A stretch of DNA of 53,796 nucleotides, taken from assembly GCA_022360555.1 (NCBI GenBank), contig JAKSCQ010000155.1:1-53796 (forward strand). The letters are read 5' to 3'. The stretch is from Pseudomonadales bacterium. Its GTDB lineage: Bacteria; Pseudomonadota; Gammaproteobacteria; Pseudomonadales; Alcanivoracaceae. Of this stretch, positions 32,851 to 40,328 are shown in pieces. A program made the translations under genes and the position numbers. Numbering within the stretch: position 1 is the first letter of the stretch; each line of letters starts with the position of its first letter. The notes below the pieces were generated by a model. The model was not told the origin of the DNA. It saw nothing but the letters and a program-made list of their open reading frames with translations, and searched no databases.

Positions 32851-32928
32851 CAAACCTGCCGGCATTGCCCAAGGCAATAAGCCCCTTGCCGGATAAACGC
32901 GTTGCGCTTTCCGGCATAACCACAGCCT

Positions 32929-32947
32929 GGAGTTATTCAGAGGCTCC
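32929..32947. mobile_element. Solo terminal repeat of the MITE-like element
   Basis: Identical to the last 19 nt of the element at 1-315 (GGAGTTATTCAGAGGCTCC). The sequence on its left does not match the element interior, so this is a remnant or the end of a different relative. Confidence 0.6.
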
Positions 32948-32986
32948 TTAATTCCTGCGACAGAGCTGACCGCCCTGCCCCGAAAA

Positions 32987-33373
32987 TCAGTTCTTCACCG
33001 CATACTTTCCAGCACCCAGGAAAAAGACCGCAACGGCGGTGAACAGGAAGAAGCCCTGCAGCTCCAGCGCCCAACCACCGGTATCGCCAAGCGCAAACAG
33101 TTCGCCCATGTGTACCAGCACAATCGCCACCAGCATGTTGCCGGCGATCAGCACCGCGCCAATCCGGGTGTGGAAACCCAGCAACACCATCAACGGCGCT
33201 ATGATTTCCCCGATAAACACCCCATAGGCAAGAAAGCCCGGCAGGTTGTGAGACGCCAGTTCCCCGGCAATCCAGCCCACCCCGGAATGCAGCTTGCTGA
33301 TACCGTGCAGCAACATCAGCAGACCCAGTGTCAGCCGCAGAACCAGTTTTCCCACATCAGGATTATTCACCAT
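32987..33373 (-). CDS. DoxX family membrane protein
   Basis: A 128-aa protein with four helices. LVLRLTLGLLMLLHGISKL and the FGEIIAPLMVLLGFHTRIGA-like segment (here VFIGEIIAPLMVLLGFHTRI) are typical of DoxX. The family is often linked to redox or respiratory-chain functions, but no activity is assigned. It appears monocistronic; the terminator at 33424-33454 lies upstream and belongs to the preceding operon. Confidence 0.88.
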   Translation of the reverse strand: MVNNPDVGKLVLRLTLGLLMLLHGISKLHSGVGWIAGELASHNLPGFLAYGVFIGEIIAPLMVLLGFHTRIGAVLIAGNMLVAIVLVHMGELFALGDTGGWALELQGFFLFTAVAVFFLGAGKYAVKN

Positions 33374-33423
33374 GTCAGCTCCCGTTCAGTCAATGCATGG
33401 CTGTCATTCAACCGGTTGCGGCA

Positions 33424-33454
33424 CAAAAAGAAAAGGCTCCTTGCGGAGCCTTTT
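33424..33454 (-). terminator. Terminator of the 419-aa/124-aa operon
   Basis: Stem AAAAGGCTCC / GGAGCCTTTT with loop TTGC; the minus-strand U-rich tail TTTTCTTTTTG follows. It ends the operon 19 bp after its last stop. Confidence 0.88.
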
Positions 33455-33472
33455 GCAACTTACCACAACCAC

Positions 33473-33847
33473 TCAGGTCGGTGAGCCCGATACACTGTAG
33501 ATATGGCCGTCATTGAGACTGCTGAACAAGGCGTTCTTGATCTTGCGCAGGGCGTAAACACGCTGCGCCTCAATGCTGGTTTCTCCCACCGTATCGGCAA
33601 TCAGGACAGCCGCAACCGTACTGTGGCCCTGGATACCATTAATCTGTGCCTGCAGATTCTGCTGGCCACCACCTGTGCGCCCCTGGACATCGACACGTAC
33701 CGTGCCCACATTGGCGATAGTGCCAGCACCTCGCCAGACATCGGCGAAATCGATGGCATCAATAGCATGCATGGCATCATGCTGCTGGTTGGGGTGCATG
33801 GCACCGAAGGCATTGGGGATAAGCCCCTGCTGTTGTACCTGTAGCAT
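33473..33847 (-). CDS. Hypothetical protein, second gene of unusual two-gene operon
   Basis: A 124-aa protein I do not recognise. The N-terminal third is Gln/His/Asn-rich (MLQVQQQGLIPNAFG, NQQHDAMHAIDAID). The middle is Gly/Thr/Val-rich and probably beta (GTIANVGTVRVDVQG). The end is likely helical (AQRVYALRKIKNALFSSL). There is no signal peptide, Cys or membrane helix. The site GGAG overlaps the stop of the 419-aa gene and the start follows 9 nt after that stop, so both are probably made in a fixed ratio. A frame on the opposite strand has no ribosome site. Confidence 0.75.
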   Translation of the reverse strand: MLQVQQQGLIPNAFGAMHPNQQHDAMHAIDAIDFADVWRGAGTIANVGTVRVDVQGRTGGGQQNLQAQINGIQGHSTVAAVLIADTVGETSIEAQRVYALRKIKNALFSSLNDGHIYSVSGSPT

Positions 33848-33856
33848 GAGCGTCTC

Positions 33857-35116
33857 CTATTTCGGGTCTACCACCCAGTTAGTCCCCAGACCAATTACCG
33901 TGCCCCAGTCACTGCTGGAGATACAGGTAATGGTCTCGCCATCCACCTTGACGGTGCCCTTGTCACTGTCGGAACCACCGGCACCACCAAATTCGAACGG
34001 CCCGATGAAGAAGCCCCCTTCTCCCTTAATGGTTTCCTTGACCTGCTCGGCGAACTCGCTGCCCGCATTGATGGTAATGGTGGGGCGGTAGCCGACAATC
34101 ATCTGCGATACGATTCGCGCCAGGTTGCCCCCTTTACCGAAGTAGTAGACATCGTCGCCATCCTTGAAACCGGAATGGCCAGGCATGAATGGGCCGTTCT
34201 TGTAGTTGGTGGGCATGGCCGCGTTGAACCAGTTACCCGGTGTCACCGTCACCACGGAGACATCCTCGAACGAGAAGGAAATATCGTACTGGCTGGAAAA
34301 GTGCTCGGTGGACACTTTCTTGTATTCGCCCGCTGCTTCAAAACCGAAAAAGTCGAACAGTCCCCCCAGTTCAGATTCACCGTAAACCGTGCTGTCTGAC
34401 CACTGCCGGGTCGATGAATCAAAGGAGAAGGTCTTGCTTTCCCCCTTGCTGGCCTTGCCACCAAAGTTATCCCCGGTAATACGCTTGACGTAGTCCCAGG
34501 GCGTTTCACTGATTTCGAAGACCGGCTGATCCTTGATCATGGTACCGCCCTGACCGACAACGCTGGACAGGTTATCGTCATAACGCTGGGCGGCGTCACT
34601 GATCGGGCCTTTCAGCTTTTGCATGTACTCAAGGTAGTTGGCATTGGCAGCCTTAAGCTGCTCTTTGGCTTGGTTGAGCTGGGCCGCGGATGCCGCCCCC
34701 TCGTTTTCCAGCCAATCCTTGTAAGACTCGGTACTGCTGGTCTGCTGCTTGAAGTTCTGATAGGCCACATTAACCGAAGCCTGGATCTGGTTAAGATTCT
34801 GGCCAGCATCGGAAATTTTCTGCTGCAGTTTCTGCCCTTCCTCGCCGCCATCGGTCATCAGGAAATTCAGGAACATGCGATACTGATCCCCGAATCCCTG
34901 TTTCATGCCATGGTCGTTAGGGTCGACCAGCGGACTGGCCGGAACAATATCGAGAAACTGGATCTGTTGATACGGCACCGAGCCCATGGGCGGATTCTTG
35001 CCACCCCAGTTCCAGGGCTGCGGGCCCGTCAGCATCTGCGGTACGCCTTCAATTTTGATCTGATCCACGAAGGCGGTCATGAATTGTCCCCAAAGCGTCT
35101 TTGTCATATCGCTCAT
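33857..35116 (-). CDS. Hypothetical 419-aa protein: helical hairpin plus beta-rich domain
   Basis: Not recognised. Three parts are visible: an aromatic, Pro-rich N terminus (PQPWNWGGKNPPMGSVPYQQ, about residues 33-52); an about 95-residue coiled-coil-like stretch rich in Gln, Asn and Ala (about 85-185); and a beta-rich C terminus full of aromatic and Gly residues (DDVYYFGKGGNLARIVSQM, GGFFIGPFEFGGAGG). One Cys, no signal peptide, no transmembrane helix. The ATG at 35116 has TGGAG 8 nt upstream. Helical hairpin plus beta domain recalls some pore-forming or tubular proteins, but that is only an architectural analogy. Confidence 0.8.
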   Translation of the reverse strand: MSDMTKTLWGQFMTAFVDQIKIEGVPQMLTGPQPWNWGGKNPPMGSVPYQQIQFLDIVPASPLVDPNDHGMKQGFGDQYRMFLNFLMTDGGEEGQKLQQKISDAGQNLNQIQASVNVAYQNFKQQTSSTESYKDWLENEGAASAAQLNQAKEQLKAANANYLEYMQKLKGPISDAAQRYDDNLSSVVGQGGTMIKDQPVFEISETPWDYVKRITGDNFGGKASKGESKTFSFDSSTRQWSDSTVYGESELGGLFDFFGFEAAGEYKKVSTEHFSSQYDISFSFEDVSVVTVTPGNWFNAAMPTNYKNGPFMPGHSGFKDGDDVYYFGKGGNLARIVSQMIVGYRPTITINAGSEFAEQVKETIKGEGGFFIGPFEFGGAGGSDSDKGTVKVDGETITCISSSDWGTVIGLGTNWVVDPK

Positions 35117-35400
35117 TGTCTTGCTCCATTTACTGAGTTTATTTCGGGCACCTCCTGCCCGGATTTTTTGCCCTGAAAATTGCCAGGGCCGGATCAGTAT
35201 TGAAGCGGGAACAATGCAAATGGAAATTATCACTCCTGATGGAAACGATCACGAAAGATGCATCACCAGCCATGATCATTGCCATTACCAACCATAATGA
35301 ACTGCAAGGAAAAGACGCAGTAGGATGAAAGGCAAACCGGCAACCATGGCACCGCCTTGGGGGGATGCCGGCCATGTCATCGCAATAACAAGGACGAACC
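35117..35400. promoter_or_regulatory. Shared divergent promoter region of two unusual operons
   Basis: 284 bp between the 419-aa gene and the phosphorylase-like gene. It is AT-richer than the neighbourhood around 35180-35300, and should hold both promoters. No perfect palindrome apart from the hairpin at 35145-35161 was found. LysR sites (T-N11-A) could exist but cannot be assigned by eye. Confidence 0.5.
35145..35168 (+). terminator. Plus-strand terminator-like hairpin in the leader of the 419-aa gene
   Basis: Stem CGGGCA / TGCCCG with loop CCTCC, followed on plus by GATTTTTTG. No plus-strand gene ends here. On the minus strand the same hairpin would sit in the 5' leader with GGAGG in its loop, about 28 nt before the start codon. 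Confidence 0.6.
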
Positions 35401-36534
35401 ATGATCACTCCAACCGATCTCATCCCCGAAACCCTGCTCAATGCCCAGCGCCTGGCGGCATTACCGGAAAACCCGACAGAGCTGCCGGCAGTGGACTGGC
35501 AAAGGCTGGGAGTCAGTGAGAACCGGATTCCCGTCGCCCAGGACCTGCCAACCCCGGCCCCCCAGGACCCCCTTCCCCACACGGACGTGGTCGTTATGAC
35601 GTGGACCAGTGCGGAATGGGCGGCCATGAACCAGGTGCTCACCAACCGACGCGAGCCACTCACGCCGGATCAGGCGAAAAGCCATGAATGGCGTGATGGC
35701 TGGCAGTCCTACCAGCGGAATTATTGCCGCATTTATCAATACATGGTGGACGTATCGAAGACCTATCAGGGTGGGGCGCCGTCGCTTTATGACGAAAGCT
35801 GGGGCAGTTATCGCTGCATCACCATCGGCAAGCTCAAGGTGCTGCTGGTCAAGTCCGGCATGCACCTGGCGCAGGATGGCAGCCAGCTTCCACTGATACA
35901 GTTTGTTGAACAGATCTGTGACGAGGTCAGGCCACAATTGCTGCTATCCATTGGCACCGCCGGCGGCGTACGCGAAGAAGATGCACTTGGTAGTGCCCTG
36001 ATCACCAATCAGGCCTACTTTTACTGTCTGAAACATTTTGCCAACGCGGATTTCAACGGCACCACGGTGAAATCGCAATGGCAACCCGGTGAGCATTACC
36101 TGCCCCTGGCCCAGGAAGGAGTGTTGCAAACCGCCGGCCCGGAGATACTGCCAGTCAGCCCACAGTACCCCAAGGATGCCCGTATCCGGCCGGATACGCC
36201 CGACGCAAAATTAAAAGTCGTCTGCGAGCAGCCGATCATTACCACGGATACCTTCCTTTTCGGCACCACCTCCAATGGTCTTGAACAGCATGGCTGCATT
36301 GTGGAAATGGATGATGCCGTCGTCGGCATGGCCTGTCAGAAACAGAACGTCCCGTTTGGATTTGTCCGCAATGTCTCCGATCCAGTGATCAATGGCGACC
36401 TTCCCGACTCCCTGCAAGATAGCTGGGCTGGCTACATCTACCGCGAACAGGGGCTATACACGAGCTTTAACGGCGCATTGGCCACCTGGGCATTATTGGC
36501 CGCAGAGGCGGACAAGAAGGAGGAAAAGGCATGA
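35401..36534 (+). CDS. Nucleoside phosphorylase-like protein with extended N terminus
   Basis: A 377-aa protein. Residues about 60-365 resemble the PNP/UDP/MTAN fold: LLLSIGTAGGVREEDALGSALI matches the GTAGG phosphate/ribose loop, and IVEMDDAVVGMACQKQNVPFGFVRNVSDP matches the EMExAAVA...xxRxISD substrate region, with EMDDAVV in place of EMEGAAV. The first about 60 residues and the W-rich TWTSAEWAAMNQVL segment are not standard. AAGGA precedes the ATG. Stand-alone PNP domains occur in metabolism and as ATP- or NAD-targeting effectors in defence; which applies is unknown. The next gene overlaps by 4 bp. Confidence 0.8.
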   Translation: MITPTDLIPETLLNAQRLAALPENPTELPAVDWQRLGVSENRIPVAQDLPTPAPQDPLPHTDVVVMTWTSAEWAAMNQVLTNRREPLTPDQAKSHEWRDGWQSYQRNYCRIYQYMVDVSKTYQGGAPSLYDESWGSYRCITIGKLKVLLVKSGMHLAQDGSQLPLIQFVEQICDEVRPQLLLSIGTAGGVREEDALGSALITNQAYFYCLKHFANADFNGTTVKSQWQPGEHYLPLAQEGVLQTAGPEILPVSPQYPKDARIRPDTPDAKLKVVCEQPIITTDTFLFGTTSNGLEQHGCIVEMDDAVVGMACQKQNVPFGFVRNVSDPVINGDLPDSLQDSWAGYIYREQGLYTSFNGALATWALLAAEADKKEEKA

Positions 36535-37424
36535 GCAATCAACCGCTGTGGCTAACCCTCGCTCCGGATTCACAACGTGATACCGCCACTTTCAGCACCC
36601 TGCCGGCCTTTGCTGGCGAACAGTCGCTGAGCTCCGCCTGCGGTTTCTGTTGTCATGGGCGAGAAGCCTTTGTTAGCCAACCCGACGGCACTCTCAATCT
36701 GCTACTGGTGGACGAAACATCACGAAGCCTGACGCCCATCATCGAACTGAAGACCGAAACAGGCTACCAGAGCTTGAGCCCCTTCATGCTGGGCGGGGAG
36801 CTCCACCTTCTGGCCTATAATATCAACCAGGGTATTATGGATTTTTACCAGGTAACCGCTGACCGGTTTTTTCACCGTTATCGCTATCAGCGCACCTATG
36901 GAGACACCACTGACGGTTTTACGACCGTCCATGCCTTTTCCTACCGGGACAAGAACCTCTTCATGGCCTACAACAAGGCCAGTGGCAACAGCCGTATCTA
37001 TCAAATCGACGTGCCACCTCATTCACCGCTTGACGTCAAAATGGTCTGGCAAAGTGAGTGGGCGAAAGGGTGGGAGAATTTCAGCTTCTTTACCCTGGGT
37101 GGGGAAAATTTCTTCTTCAAGATGAACCCGCGCTACAACGCGGTCAATATCGACCATTACATGGATGACCCGGCCGACGGTTCTCACCCGGTGGGCACCG
37201 GGCTGCCGCTTTCCATGGATACCACCCTGACCGCCACCCTGGACCTTAGCGAAGGCCCCGGCTTTATTGCCTACGAAACCGGTAACGGGCTGCTGACGGC
37301 CAACCGCTTTCACAGCAACTGTCTGGGCTGGACCGAACAGGCCAGGCTGAGCATTAATGGCGGTTATACACGCGCCCTGGTCACCAATGGCAAATCCGCC
37401 CCGCTGATTGCCCTGCTACCCTGA
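36531..37424 (+). CDS. Repeat protein, probable beta-propeller/lectin-like
   Basis: A 297-aa protein of unknown family, without signal peptide. Five or six units of about 45 residues share the pattern F-x3-GG-x-hhhh-Y-x4-G-x3-hY-x-h: SPFMLGGELHLLAYNINQG (about 83-101), HAFSYRDKNLFMAYNKASG (about 129-147), SFFTLGGENFFFKMNPRYN (about 184-202) and DLSEGPGFIAYETGNG (about 238-253). Such repeats build small beta-propellers like tachylectin-type lectins. Its ATGA overlap with the phosphorylase-like gene implies coupled expression and perhaps a complex. Confidence 0.75.
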   Translation: MSNQPLWLTLAPDSQRDTATFSTLPAFAGEQSLSSACGFCCHGREAFVSQPDGTLNLLLVDETSRSLTPIIELKTETGYQSLSPFMLGGELHLLAYNINQGIMDFYQVTADRFFHRYRYQRTYGDTTDGFTTVHAFSYRDKNLFMAYNKASGNSRIYQIDVPPHSPLDVKMVWQSEWAKGWENFSFFTLGGENFFFKMNPRYNAVNIDHYMDDPADGSHPVGTGLPLSMDTTLTATLDLSEGPGFIAYETGNGLLTANRFHSNCLGWTEQARLSINGGYTRALVTNGKSAPLIALLP

Positions 37425-37460
37425 CCCGCCCGCAGGCCGGGTACGTCACAGCCCGGCCCG

Positions 37461-38375
37461 TTACGCCATGTCAAAGAACCACTCGATGACCTGCTCCACC
37501 CGGGACGGATAGTCGTGCCCCTTGATGGTGGTGATGTAGATATTGTTCATCAACGGCCCCGGGGTCTCCGCGCGGTGAAGCTGGCCCGCTTCCAACTCAG
37601 AGGCCACACAATGGCTGGGGATCACCGCCATGCCCAGACCCCCGACCACCATATCGATAGCCCCGTGAATCGCATTGATCTCGCCAGCATAGGTCAGCGA
37701 ATAAGCATTCAGGTTGCAGCGATGCGCAAAGGCATGCTTCAACCAGTGGTCATAGTAATAAGCCGAGCCCGGATAGTTGATGAAGGGCCGCGTCAGAATC
37801 GTTGCTTCATCCAGGGATTCCACATCCGCCTTGTTGCTGCTGACCAACACATATTCTTCCTGGCAGAACAGCCGGTAATCCAGCAGCGGGTGGTCGTTTT
37901 TCTCGGTCACAAAGCCGAAGTCCGCCAGATCGTCAAGCACCATCCGCACCACTTCCTGGGTCGAGGTCAAGGTAATGTTGAGCTCGATATCCGGGTGATG
38001 CAGCCGCCGCTCCAGCAACATCGGGAAATGGGGAGACATCAGGCAACTGGGAGGCATGGCATAGGACACCAGGCCGGCAATGCGGGTCTCCATGGCATGT
38101 ACCCGGTCCATGAACTGCTGGGTACTCTGCATTTGCTGGCTGATGTAGTGGGTCAGTGCCTCGCCGGCATCGGTGAGCACGACCTTCTTGCCAATCCGCT
38201 TGAACAGGGTCACGCCGACCTGCTCTTCCAGCTTGGCGATATGCTGGCTGACCCCGGACTGGGTCATATGTGCCCGGGTAGCGGCATGGGTAAAGCTGCG
38301 GGTCTGGGCTGCGGCCATGAACGCCTTGAACAGGCGCGCATCCATGAGCATGAAGTCCCGGTTGGAAAACGGCAT
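37461..38375 (-). CDS. LysR-family transcriptional regulator
   Basis: A 304-aa regulator. The winged HTH is at about residues 14-70 (FMAAAQTRSFTHAATRAHMT, SQHIAKLEEQVGVTLFKR), followed by the two-lobed effector domain. The ATG at 38375 has GGGGAG 8 nt upstream and lies 2 nt after the stop of the 253-aa gene, so the two are coupled. Effector and targets are unknown; the coupled 253-aa gene and the operons at 33.5-37.4 kb are candidates. Confidence 0.92.
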   Translation of the reverse strand: MPFSNRDFMLMDARLFKAFMAAAQTRSFTHAATRAHMTQSGVSQHIAKLEEQVGVTLFKRIGKKVVLTDAGEALTHYISQQMQSTQQFMDRVHAMETRIAGLVSYAMPPSCLMSPHFPMLLERRLHHPDIELNITLTSTQEVVRMVLDDLADFGFVTEKNDHPLLDYRLFCQEEYVLVSSNKADVESLDEATILTRPFINYPGSAYYYDHWLKHAFAHRCNLNAYSLTYAGEINAIHGAIDMVVGGLGMAVIPSHCVASELEAGQLHRAETPGPLMNNIYITTIKGHDYPSRVEQVIEWFFDMA

Positions 38376-38377
38376 GC

Positions 38378-39139
38378 TCAATACTCCCCGCCAGGCAGGG
38401 GTGTGAAACAGGGGTTGAAACTGGCCCCGCCGGTGACCGTGACGCCGGCATAGTCCGCAAAGGCCGAAGCAGGCATGTGCACTGCCGTGGCGACACTGCG
38501 TTGTACCGTGTCGCCCAGCCCCTGAGTCAGCGCTCGTGCTTCCCCCTGCCAGCAGGACCAGCAGACCAGAAACGCTTCATCCAGATAAACAAAGACGCCT
38601 TTCAACCCCTCTTCCGGCGCCTCCTGCCAGTGGGCCATGGCCGCCTGGCAATGCATCAGAAAATCCTCAGGACTATCACTGCCCCGGCTGCAGACTTCAC
38701 TGATCACGCTACCATGCTGCCAGTTGGTATCGTCATCCAGCACCTGCAAGGCACCGGTCTGCCCGGCGCCGGGCTGGAAAAGAACGGGAAACCCACTATG
38801 GCTGGCGGGTCGGTCGGCGGTGGGGGTAAAGCTGAATACCGTGGAATGCAGACTGCTGTACGTGCGGCCGGCACAACTGTCATGGCAAGCGGCATGGTAG
38901 GTTTGCGCATCGGGATAAAACACCAGGGCAACTTCATCCGGTATCACCGGGTCGTCTACCCGGGGCAACACCATGGGCACATAGGCCTGCAATCCCAGTG
39001 GGCCCATGAACTGCACCGTGGCCGGAATGAAGATACTGCCCAAGCGTTCATAAAAGAGGTCCCGCTGGTCCGCCAGTTCCGTCAGGGCATAGCCCAGCCA
39101 GACTCGCACAGCACGCCCCTGCTGATCGTCCGAGTGCAT
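38378..39139 (-). CDS. Hypothetical 253-aa protein coupled to the LysR gene
   Basis: Not recognised. VRVWLGYALTELADQRDLFY (about 11-30) and FIPATVQFMGPLGLQAYVPM (about 37-56) suggest a mixed alpha/beta fold. Seven Cys are present, including CHDSC and CWSCW, which might bind metal or form redox pairs. LEDFLMHCQAAMAHW-like helical text and EEGLKGVFVYLDEAFLVCW look like a compact enzyme or heme-dependent fold, but no motif is decisive. AGGGAGG lies before the ATG. It probably shares a transcript with LysR. Confidence 0.78.
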   Translation of the reverse strand: MHSDDQQGRAVRVWLGYALTELADQRDLFYERLGSIFIPATVQFMGPLGLQAYVPMVLPRVDDPVIPDEVALVFYPDAQTYHAACHDSCAGRTYSSLHSTVFSFTPTADRPASHSGFPVLFQPGAGQTGALQVLDDDTNWQHGSVISEVCSRGSDSPEDFLMHCQAAMAHWQEAPEEGLKGVFVYLDEAFLVCWSCWQGEARALTQGLGDTVQRSVATAVHMPASAFADYAGVTVTGGASFNPCFTPLPGGEY

Positions 39140-39302
39140 CCTTGCCTCCCTGTATCCGATTTCCTACATCACAGAAGGGCAAAGACTGACACGTTCCCAG
39201 CTAAGCAACAAGATGAATATGGCTGCACTCCTCAGGGCCTGACCCATTGCGTCATTCGCAGCGGATTTTCATACTGCAAACGCTCCATCACCGGGATTCA
39301 CC

Positions 39303-40328
39303 ATGCACCGACATGTCTGGCAAACGCACAAAGCTGGCGATATTCGCCGCCTGCAACCGACCACACAAATGCTCAACGCCTTGCCTGCCAACCAAGTACG
39401 CGTGGACGTGCGGGCCGTGGGCCTGAACTTCGCCGATATCTTTGCCCTCACCGGCCTGTATTCCGCCACGCCCGCTGGCGCCTTTATTCCCGGGCTGGAG
39501 TTCGCCGGCAGAGTACGTGAAGTGGGCGGCGCCGTTACCGAAGTGGCCGTGGGAGATCGCGTCATGGGTGTCACCCGCTTCGGCGGCTATGCCACCGTGA
39601 TCGACAGTGACCCCGCCTACCTGCTGCCCCTGCCAGCAGACTGGGATTTTGCCCAGGGCGCCGCCTGGCCGGCCCAGACATTGACCGCCTGGTATGCCCT
39701 GTCCCGGCTAGGCGCCCTGCACAAAGGCCAGCGCGTGCTCATCCACAGCGCCGCCGGCGGTGTCGGGCTGCAGGCCATGAAACTCACCCGCGCCTTGGGT
39801 GGCCACCCGGTGGGGACCGTCGGCCGCTCACAAAAGGCTCGCTGGCTGAACGAACAGGGCTTCGAACAGGTGCTAACCAGAGAAAAGAATTTCCGTGGCC
39901 AGTTGCAGCGTGACAACCTGACGTTCGATCTGGTACTCGATGCCATCGGCGGTGAGGTGCAACAGGCCAGCTTCGACGCCCTGAACCCCATGGGCCGGCT
40001 GGTGGTCTTTGGCGCCGCCGAGTTCACCCCCAGCGGCAACCGCCCCGACTACCTGAAAGCCCTGTGGCGCTACCTGCGCCGCCCCCGCTACGATGTGATG
40101 GACATGATCAGCAGCAACCGTTCGGTGCTCGCCTTCAACCTGATCTGGCTGTGGGAACAGACGCATCACATGCAGGAACTGCTTGAGGAACTGAAAGCGG
40201 TGCCACTAGCGCCTCCACATGTCGGCCACCGTTTTGCGTTTGAAGACGCCCATGAAGCCCTGGCCCTGCTACGCTCCGGACAGACCATCGGCAAGGTGGT
40301 GCTGGAGTCAGGTAGTGGGCAGGACTGA
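39303..40328 (+). CDS. Zinc-independent MDR oxidoreductase, VAT-1/quinone reductase-like
   Basis: A 341-aa medium-chain reductase. GROES-like N terminus (VRAVGLNFADIFALTGLYSAT, GLEFAGRVREVG) and NADP-binding Rossmann part (VLIHSAAGGVGLQAMKL, about residues 145-161). No zinc ligands are present, as in quinone oxidoreductase and VAT-1-like proteins; the C-terminal region (YLRRPRYDVMDMISSNRSVLAFNLIWLWEQ) matches the VAT-1 subgroup. NADPH-dependent reduction of a quinone or enone is likely. Its 3' end overlaps the convergent thioredoxin gene by 21 bp. Confidence 0.9.
   Translation: MHRHVWQTHKAGDIRRLQPTTQMLNALPANQVRVDVRAVGLNFADIFALTGLYSATPAGAFIPGLEFAGRVREVGGAVTEVAVGDRVMGVTRFGGYATVIDSDPAYLLPLPADWDFAQGAAWPAQTLTAWYALSRLGALHKGQRVLIHSAAGGVGLQAMKLTRALGGHPVGTVGRSQKARWLNEQGFEQVLTREKNFRGQLQRDNLTFDLVLDAIGGEVQQASFDALNPMGRLVVFGAAEFTPSGNRPDYLKALWRYLRRPRYDVMDMISSNRSVLAFNLIWLWEQTHHMQELLEELKAVPLAPPHVGHRFAFEDAHEALALLRSGQTIGKVVLESGSGQD

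Follow-up and report, generated by a model that had tools for sequence, protein, structure and literature searches.

What holds six adjoining genes together when four of their products resemble no described protein, and what might such a set do for the bacterium that carries it? The question is raised by positions 33473..39139 of contig JAKSCQ010000155.1 (assembly GCA_022360555.1), the whole 53,796-nucleotide stretch of which is referred to here as the window, from a genome of the genus Alcanivorax. The genes, termed P1 to P6, are arranged as a minus-strand operon (P1-P2), a plus-strand operon (P3-P4), and a second minus-strand pair (P6-P5) that ends toward P4 (Table 1). Comparison across genomes indicates that the six genes are a real evolutionary unit, which appears to be a cassette passed on by horizontal transfer, complete in itself and equipped with a LysR regulator of its own; its function can be proposed far more tentatively.

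A scan for P1 over 84,980 species genomes, which reaches close relatives only, gave 62 pattern matches, five of which encode a relative, at four distinct loci: Alcanivorax NORP25 (L007), Alcanivorax DG881 (L008), Halomonas LBP4 (L009) and H. heilongjiangensis (L010). All six proteins are present in identical order and orientation in each of the four, at identities of 75-86% for P1, 61-73% for P2, 53-63% for P4, 79-84% for P5 and 49-53% for P6. All six open reading frames (ORFs) are under purifying selection over the five loci (pN/pS of 0.01-0.51 for the pairs computed, by simple counting, synonymous sites being close to saturation between Alcanivorax and Halomonas). An initial annotation, made from the sequence of the window, had held that the genes act together, that a module would be supported if at least the four divergent genes were found together, and that homologues scattered without a shared neighbourhood would speak against one; as possible roles it had named defence, antagonism and carbohydrate recognition. 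Among close relatives the unit is borne out, with all six genes together in both genomic contexts, and the scattering that the annotation had allowed for is seen in part among the distant relatives of P3 and P6 described below.

The same annotation had the gene structure right, as positions, lengths, order and couplings were re-found as given. The P2 ribosome site overlaps the P1 stop (TAGGAGACGCTCATG, with a 9-bp gap between the genes), P3 and P4 share an ATGA overlap, the divergent region is exact at 284 bp, and the LysR start used by the relatives corresponds here to an ATG 2 nt past the P6 stop (the alternative TTG would overlap that stop). The P1 start at 35116, rather than GTG 35233 of the mechanical ORF list, fits an N terminus, MSD(M/L)TKTLWGQF, found in 5/5 loci. 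P2 overlaps open frames on the opposite strand and is nonetheless very probably a real gene, because its protein is conserved in 5/5 loci with pN/pS of 0.15-0.36.

The edges of the cassette were located by blastn comparison of a 6.7-kb stretch of the window (32900-39599) with both Halomonas loci. Similarity begins at 33485, within the 3′ end of P2, and stops at 39116 in Halomonas LBP4 and at 39219 in H. heilongjiangensis (blastn 39178-39219, 81%); across the 6.7 kb compared, the module alone shows DNA similarity to Halomonas. Its neighbours in Alcanivorax are a DoxX-type gene on one side and a quinone-oxidoreductase-type gene (QOR; both named by eye) on the other, and the flanking frames in the Halomonas loci differ from these. 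A QOR ortholog of at least 69% is present in 16 of 17 Alcanivorax genomes, namely the source genome, the carriers DG881 (G250) and NORP25 (G252), and 13 others, and in all 13 module-less genomes DoxX and QOR are less than 0.9 kb apart, spaced by 104-276 bp in six and by 733-879 bp in seven. The longer gaps contain a further DoxX-like frame (by eye, with a tblastn match in L034), which in these seven genomes (L028, L030-L032, L034-L036) occupies the site of the module; the spot may therefore often take up genes. P3 is present in 3/46 genomes of the family, the G+C content of the module is 0.569 compared with 0.594 for the window, and no tRNA suggesting tRNA-linked insertion was found in the four other loci (L007-L010).

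Table 1 Features of the six-gene module, in window coordinates
Feature	Position	Strand	Description
P2	33473..33847	-	124 aa; downstream partner of P1 in the minus operon
P1	33857..35116	-	419 aa; first gene of the minus operon
Divergent promoter region	35117..35400		284 bp between P1 and P3; aligned in 5 loci
CATTA-N7-TAATG dyad	35283..35299		Candidate LysR-type site inside the P1-P3 promoter region
P3	35401..36534	+	377 aa; predicted divergent nucleoside phosphorylase/nucleosidase superfamily enzyme
P4	36531..37424	+	297 aa; repeats of ~50 residues, probable beta-propeller
P5	37461..38375	-	LysR-family regulator; probably starts at ATG 38375, with the frame open as far as TTG 38381
P6	38378..39139	-	253 aa; pairs with the LysR gene
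Upstream region of P6	39140..39221		Partly conserved in one Halomonas (H. heilongjiangensis)

The likely enzyme of the set is P3. It scores 38.4 bits against Pfam PNP_UDP_1 (PF01048; cut-off 25.1), which places it in the nucleoside phosphorylase/nucleosidase superfamily, and its sequence suggests that active-site-type motifs are retained: WTxxE, KSxxH, GTxG, EMxD and RNxSDP are invariant in seven sequences with identities down to 30%, as are residues E72, E302-M303 and D327, in keeping with the enzyme role first suggested for this protein. In the methylthioadenosine/S-adenosylhomocysteine (MTA/SAH) nucleosidase MTAN, the active-site residues are E12, E174 and D197; the pairing of E72 of P3 was made by eye. 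Non-significant PDB alignments (E 0.12 or more) also pair two P3 motif stretches, GT-GG and VEM...VR-SD, with MTA/SAH nucleosidases. P3 differs from MTAN in its N-terminal part of ~130 residues, in its unfamiliar partners, and in having Asp or Gly in place of the second glutamate of the MTAN VEME motif (the E174 position); because of this replacement, its substrate may differ from that of MTAN. It falls far under the cut-offs of all six NCBIfam models matched, and orthology to MTA/SAH nucleosidase was rejected at 25.8 bits, where the equivalog model (NF004079) has a cut-off of 169. P3 had no match in the phage collection.

For P4, the propeller claim of the initial annotation fits a periodicity of ~50 residues. 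Self-similarity at offsets of 51 (23.5) and 102 (16.2) lies above all 200 shuffles (largest 15.8), and that at offsets of 101, 152 and 48 does not; P4 is probably a beta-propeller, and the signals at 51 and 102 in 297 residues suggest about six blades. P5 passes the cut-offs of both LysR domains, HTH_1 (PF00126, 76.4 bits against 26.6) and LysR_substrate (PF03466, 91.3 bits against 28). Only P3 and P5 pass curated Pfam or NCBIfam cut-offs, which upholds the earlier remark that four of the six proteins match nothing. P4 and P6 had no match in Pfam, NCBIfam, PADLOC or PHROGs (the last two scanned with P1-P4 and P6) and none on viral contigs, and a PDB sequence search gave nothing significant for P1, P2, P4 or P6. 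A P6 relative in the 1.5-Mb genome G304 (L025 9539-10303) has a signal-peptide-like start, unlike the P6 of the window.

LysR-type regulators bind sites of the pattern T-N11-A, and the dyad between P1 and P3 is a candidate for such a site. Both Halomonas have it unchanged in form, the other two Alcanivorax have it as CATTA-N4-TAATG, and the exact pattern occurs at two places in the source genome. Weighing against the dyad, with one mismatch allowed it is not rarer than chance, as a match also arises in 43 of 100 shuffled versions of the window.

P1 belongs to a sparse family without an existing model. Against Pfam, NCBIfam, PADLOC and PHROGs it gave only weak coiled-coil-type matches, far below cut-off, and P2 gave two weak, chance-level matches. 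Relatives of P1 were recognised in genome G575, in Photobacterium sp. DA100 and in Sinorhizobium americanum; hhalign of P1 against five distant relatives aligned residues 42-410 with 97.9% probability (E 3e-13), and three control comparisons gave <1%. P1-like genes form tandem pairs in Photobacterium (L060 11878-14027) and in G575 (L058 8963-11172). P1 itself had no match in the plasmid collection, phages or viral contigs, and its distant relative from G575 matches three plasmid-collection records. A pore-forming beta-hairpin guessed by eye in P1 was not favoured by a hydrophobic-moment scan.

Whole genomes were sampled for distant relatives at E 0.001, with the source genome counted in every tally. 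P1 was found in 2/244 genomes of the order, the other match being weak (G021; 102 residues, 24%), and a broadened P1 profile in 2/266 genomes of the class, the other match again weak. With E up to 0.1, the P1 profile matched 12/349 genomes, of which only the source genome and G575 lie under 0.001; one of the remainder, L059 (G503, E 0.02), was dropped as unconvincing, and G575 alone was taken further. P3 was found in 3/349 genomes of the phylum, P4 in 3/289 genomes (one match weak) and P6 in 5/398 genomes; weak matches in G684, G101 and G336 were given no weight. Among 72,556 records of a plasmid collection, relatives of P3 are present in two, of P4 in one and of P6 in one.

In a Burkholderia pyrrocinia replicon (pBPJTT, L014), distant relatives of P3, P4 and P6 at ~30% identity sit together in a stretch of 7.1 kb. 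This set has two P6-like genes, and its P3 protein has 980 residues with an extra domain, A9. The surroundings (L014 2456-21508) hold a DNase II, a calcineurin-like metallophosphoesterase, a ferritin-like gene, a gene annotated as tyrosinase and four RebB genes, of which the nearest is ~3 kb from the set. In G433, P3 and P4 relatives lie 3.4 kb apart. P1 and P2 profiles found nothing convincing in the distant loci L014-L017; a LysR-like frame was seen by eye ~2 kb from P3 in L017. A9 recurs as a neighbour, either joined to P3 or next to it in L014 (14226-17168), L015 (13074-15890) and L016 (10918-12225) and beside P6 in L023 (6302-7909), and its two matching records in the plasmid collection are the same two that carry P3. 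In this undescribed family the stretches GCRKAP and GINPN are invariant, as are several cysteines; a uracil-DNA-glycosylase-like assignment, made on a motif, was unsupported by Pfam (searched with one member) and PDB. Distant P3 clusters also hold GMC oxidoreductase, HAD, glycerophosphodiesterase and amidohydrolase genes, the best models of the last being nucleobase deaminase types below cut-off. P3 relatives are further found on six viral contigs (IMG/VR, L064-L069). On several of these contigs, the frames adjoining P3 resemble actinophage-type tail or lysis genes.

Taken together, the module was rated as falling outside known kinds, because the models and literature searched describe neither it nor four of its proteins (no description was found in the open-licence PMC literature), and the functional claim is held low. 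The reading tentatively put first is a LysR-controlled conflict module whose effector is P3 and which would serve to defend against phages or to antagonise other cells. On binding a signal, P5 would act at the dyad between P1 and P3 to turn on the two divergent operons; P3 would then cleave the N-glycosidic bond in its substrate, a purine nucleoside or a nucleotide-like compound, acting as the damaging enzyme in a biological conflict. The propeller P4 and P6 would be older partners of P3, serving recognition or control, and P1 and P2 a version-specific, exchangeable second part, perhaps binding or membrane-acting. A conflict role is favoured because of the sporadic occurrence and the transfer as a sealed unit, because passages of two papers describe the reuse of PNP-type and calcineurin-like effectors in conflict systems (PMC7159879, PMC10952713), and because relatives occur near RebB genes, nucleases and type VI secretion system (T6SS) genes and on viral contigs. 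A more specific version, a new mobile conflict system in which a LysR-triggered P3 nucleosidase with dedicated P4 and P6 is joined to a second part that is P1/P2 here and other hydrolases near R-body genes elsewhere, is distinctly more doubtful. R-body (reb) clusters resemble the module in the RebB neighbours of the Burkholderia relatives and differ from it in that P2 is not Reb: weak profile matches (E 0.22, 0.095) were rejected after hhalign against the four Burkholderia RebB proteins gave a probability of 0.5.

Several results weigh against a conflict role. P3 stands without a detected P4 or P6 in two of the four distant cellular loci (Azospirillum, L015; G379, L017), P6 without a detected P3 or P4 in 4/4 sampled stretches, two of which end near the gene at a contig end, and P3 without P1, P2, P4, P6 or A9 on 6/6 viral contigs (flanks up to 5 kb). 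Most of the distant P3 and P6 relatives are thus apart from their partners, which counts against strict linkage. The PDB search with P3 gave nothing significant (best E 0.057), defence models gave no match beyond a generic PNP effector model in PADLOC (21.9 bits for P3), and seven proteins of the wider clusters matched none. TssK is absent from two of the three Alcanivorax carriers, and RebB had no match in 17 Alcanivorax genomes, but control genomes were equally silent. Finally, a LysR regulator with divergent operons is more usual in inducible metabolism.

Almost as probable as a conflict module is a metabolic cassette that processes nucleosides. The LysR protein would sense a nucleoside-like or related compound and induce P3 to split the same compound, and P4, P6, P1 and P2 would serve for binding or as scaffolds. 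This explanation does nearly as well because the regulator and the layout, divergent operons with a dyad between them, are typical of inducible pathways, and because some distant P3 clusters contain oxidoreductases and a deaminase-like hydrolase as well as the HAD and glycerophosphodiesterase genes. It also accords with P3 being closest to housekeeping-type nucleosidase models and with the window proteins having no evident signal-peptide-like N terminus (by eye), but P1, P2, P4 and P6 match no enzyme or transporter family, the module has no transport gene, and its occurrence is very sporadic.

A secreted or injected antagonism module, in which P3 would be the payload and P1 (with P2) would deliver it or act on membranes, is improbable. 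It was suggested by two P1-like genes in G575 that sit downstream of tssK, tssL and tssM, and by the second Photobacterium P1-like copy, which has a signal-peptide-like start (by eye). Against it stand the lack of an evident secretion signal in the window proteins and the outcome of the hydrophobic-moment scan, which did not single out the P1 beta-hairpin. The module, unlike T6SS loci, contains no T6SS gene; a T6SS-dependent effector role of P1 is not supported, because TssK, present in the source genome (G000), is missing from carriers G250 and G252.

In Detocs, sensor and regulator partner genes lie beside the PNP effector. An antiphage system of the Detocs or Cap17 type would have P3 degrade nucleotides on infection. 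Such systems share with the module a PNP-superfamily enzyme within a compact mobile gene set, and P3 does match the generic PADLOC effector model. P3 scores equally with housekeeping nucleosidase models, however, and no other Detocs gene is present, as the initial annotation had correctly noted: none of the other five proteins carries Detocs partner domains. P3 matches PF01048 alone (E up to 5), and the six proteins lack the PNP-associated SLOG domain (PF18178) that a passage of PMC10952713 gives for Detocs and Cap17 PNP effectors. Membership in Detocs or Cap17 is ruled out by gene composition and scores, which leaves this explanation very little probability. Equally hard to credit is the absence of any functional unit, with neighbouring pairs moving together by chance: distant P3, P6 and P1 relatives do occur without the others, but all six genes are retained under purifying selection in 5/5 close loci, and P3, P4 and P6 are linked again in Burkholderia.

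Whichever role applies, a six-gene package is kept together in two unrelated groups of salt-water bacteria, Alcanivorax and Halomonas, and four undescribed protein families in a compact set that moves and persists as one piece make a clean target for new function. The edges and the regulator are already defined, as are a candidate operator, an enzyme whose active-site residues can be tested, and sister species in which the site is naturally free of the module, and deletion, expression and activity tests can therefore be designed at once. With P3, the module also puts an enzyme of the PNP superfamily in company other than that of the antiphage systems in which enzymes of this type are known.

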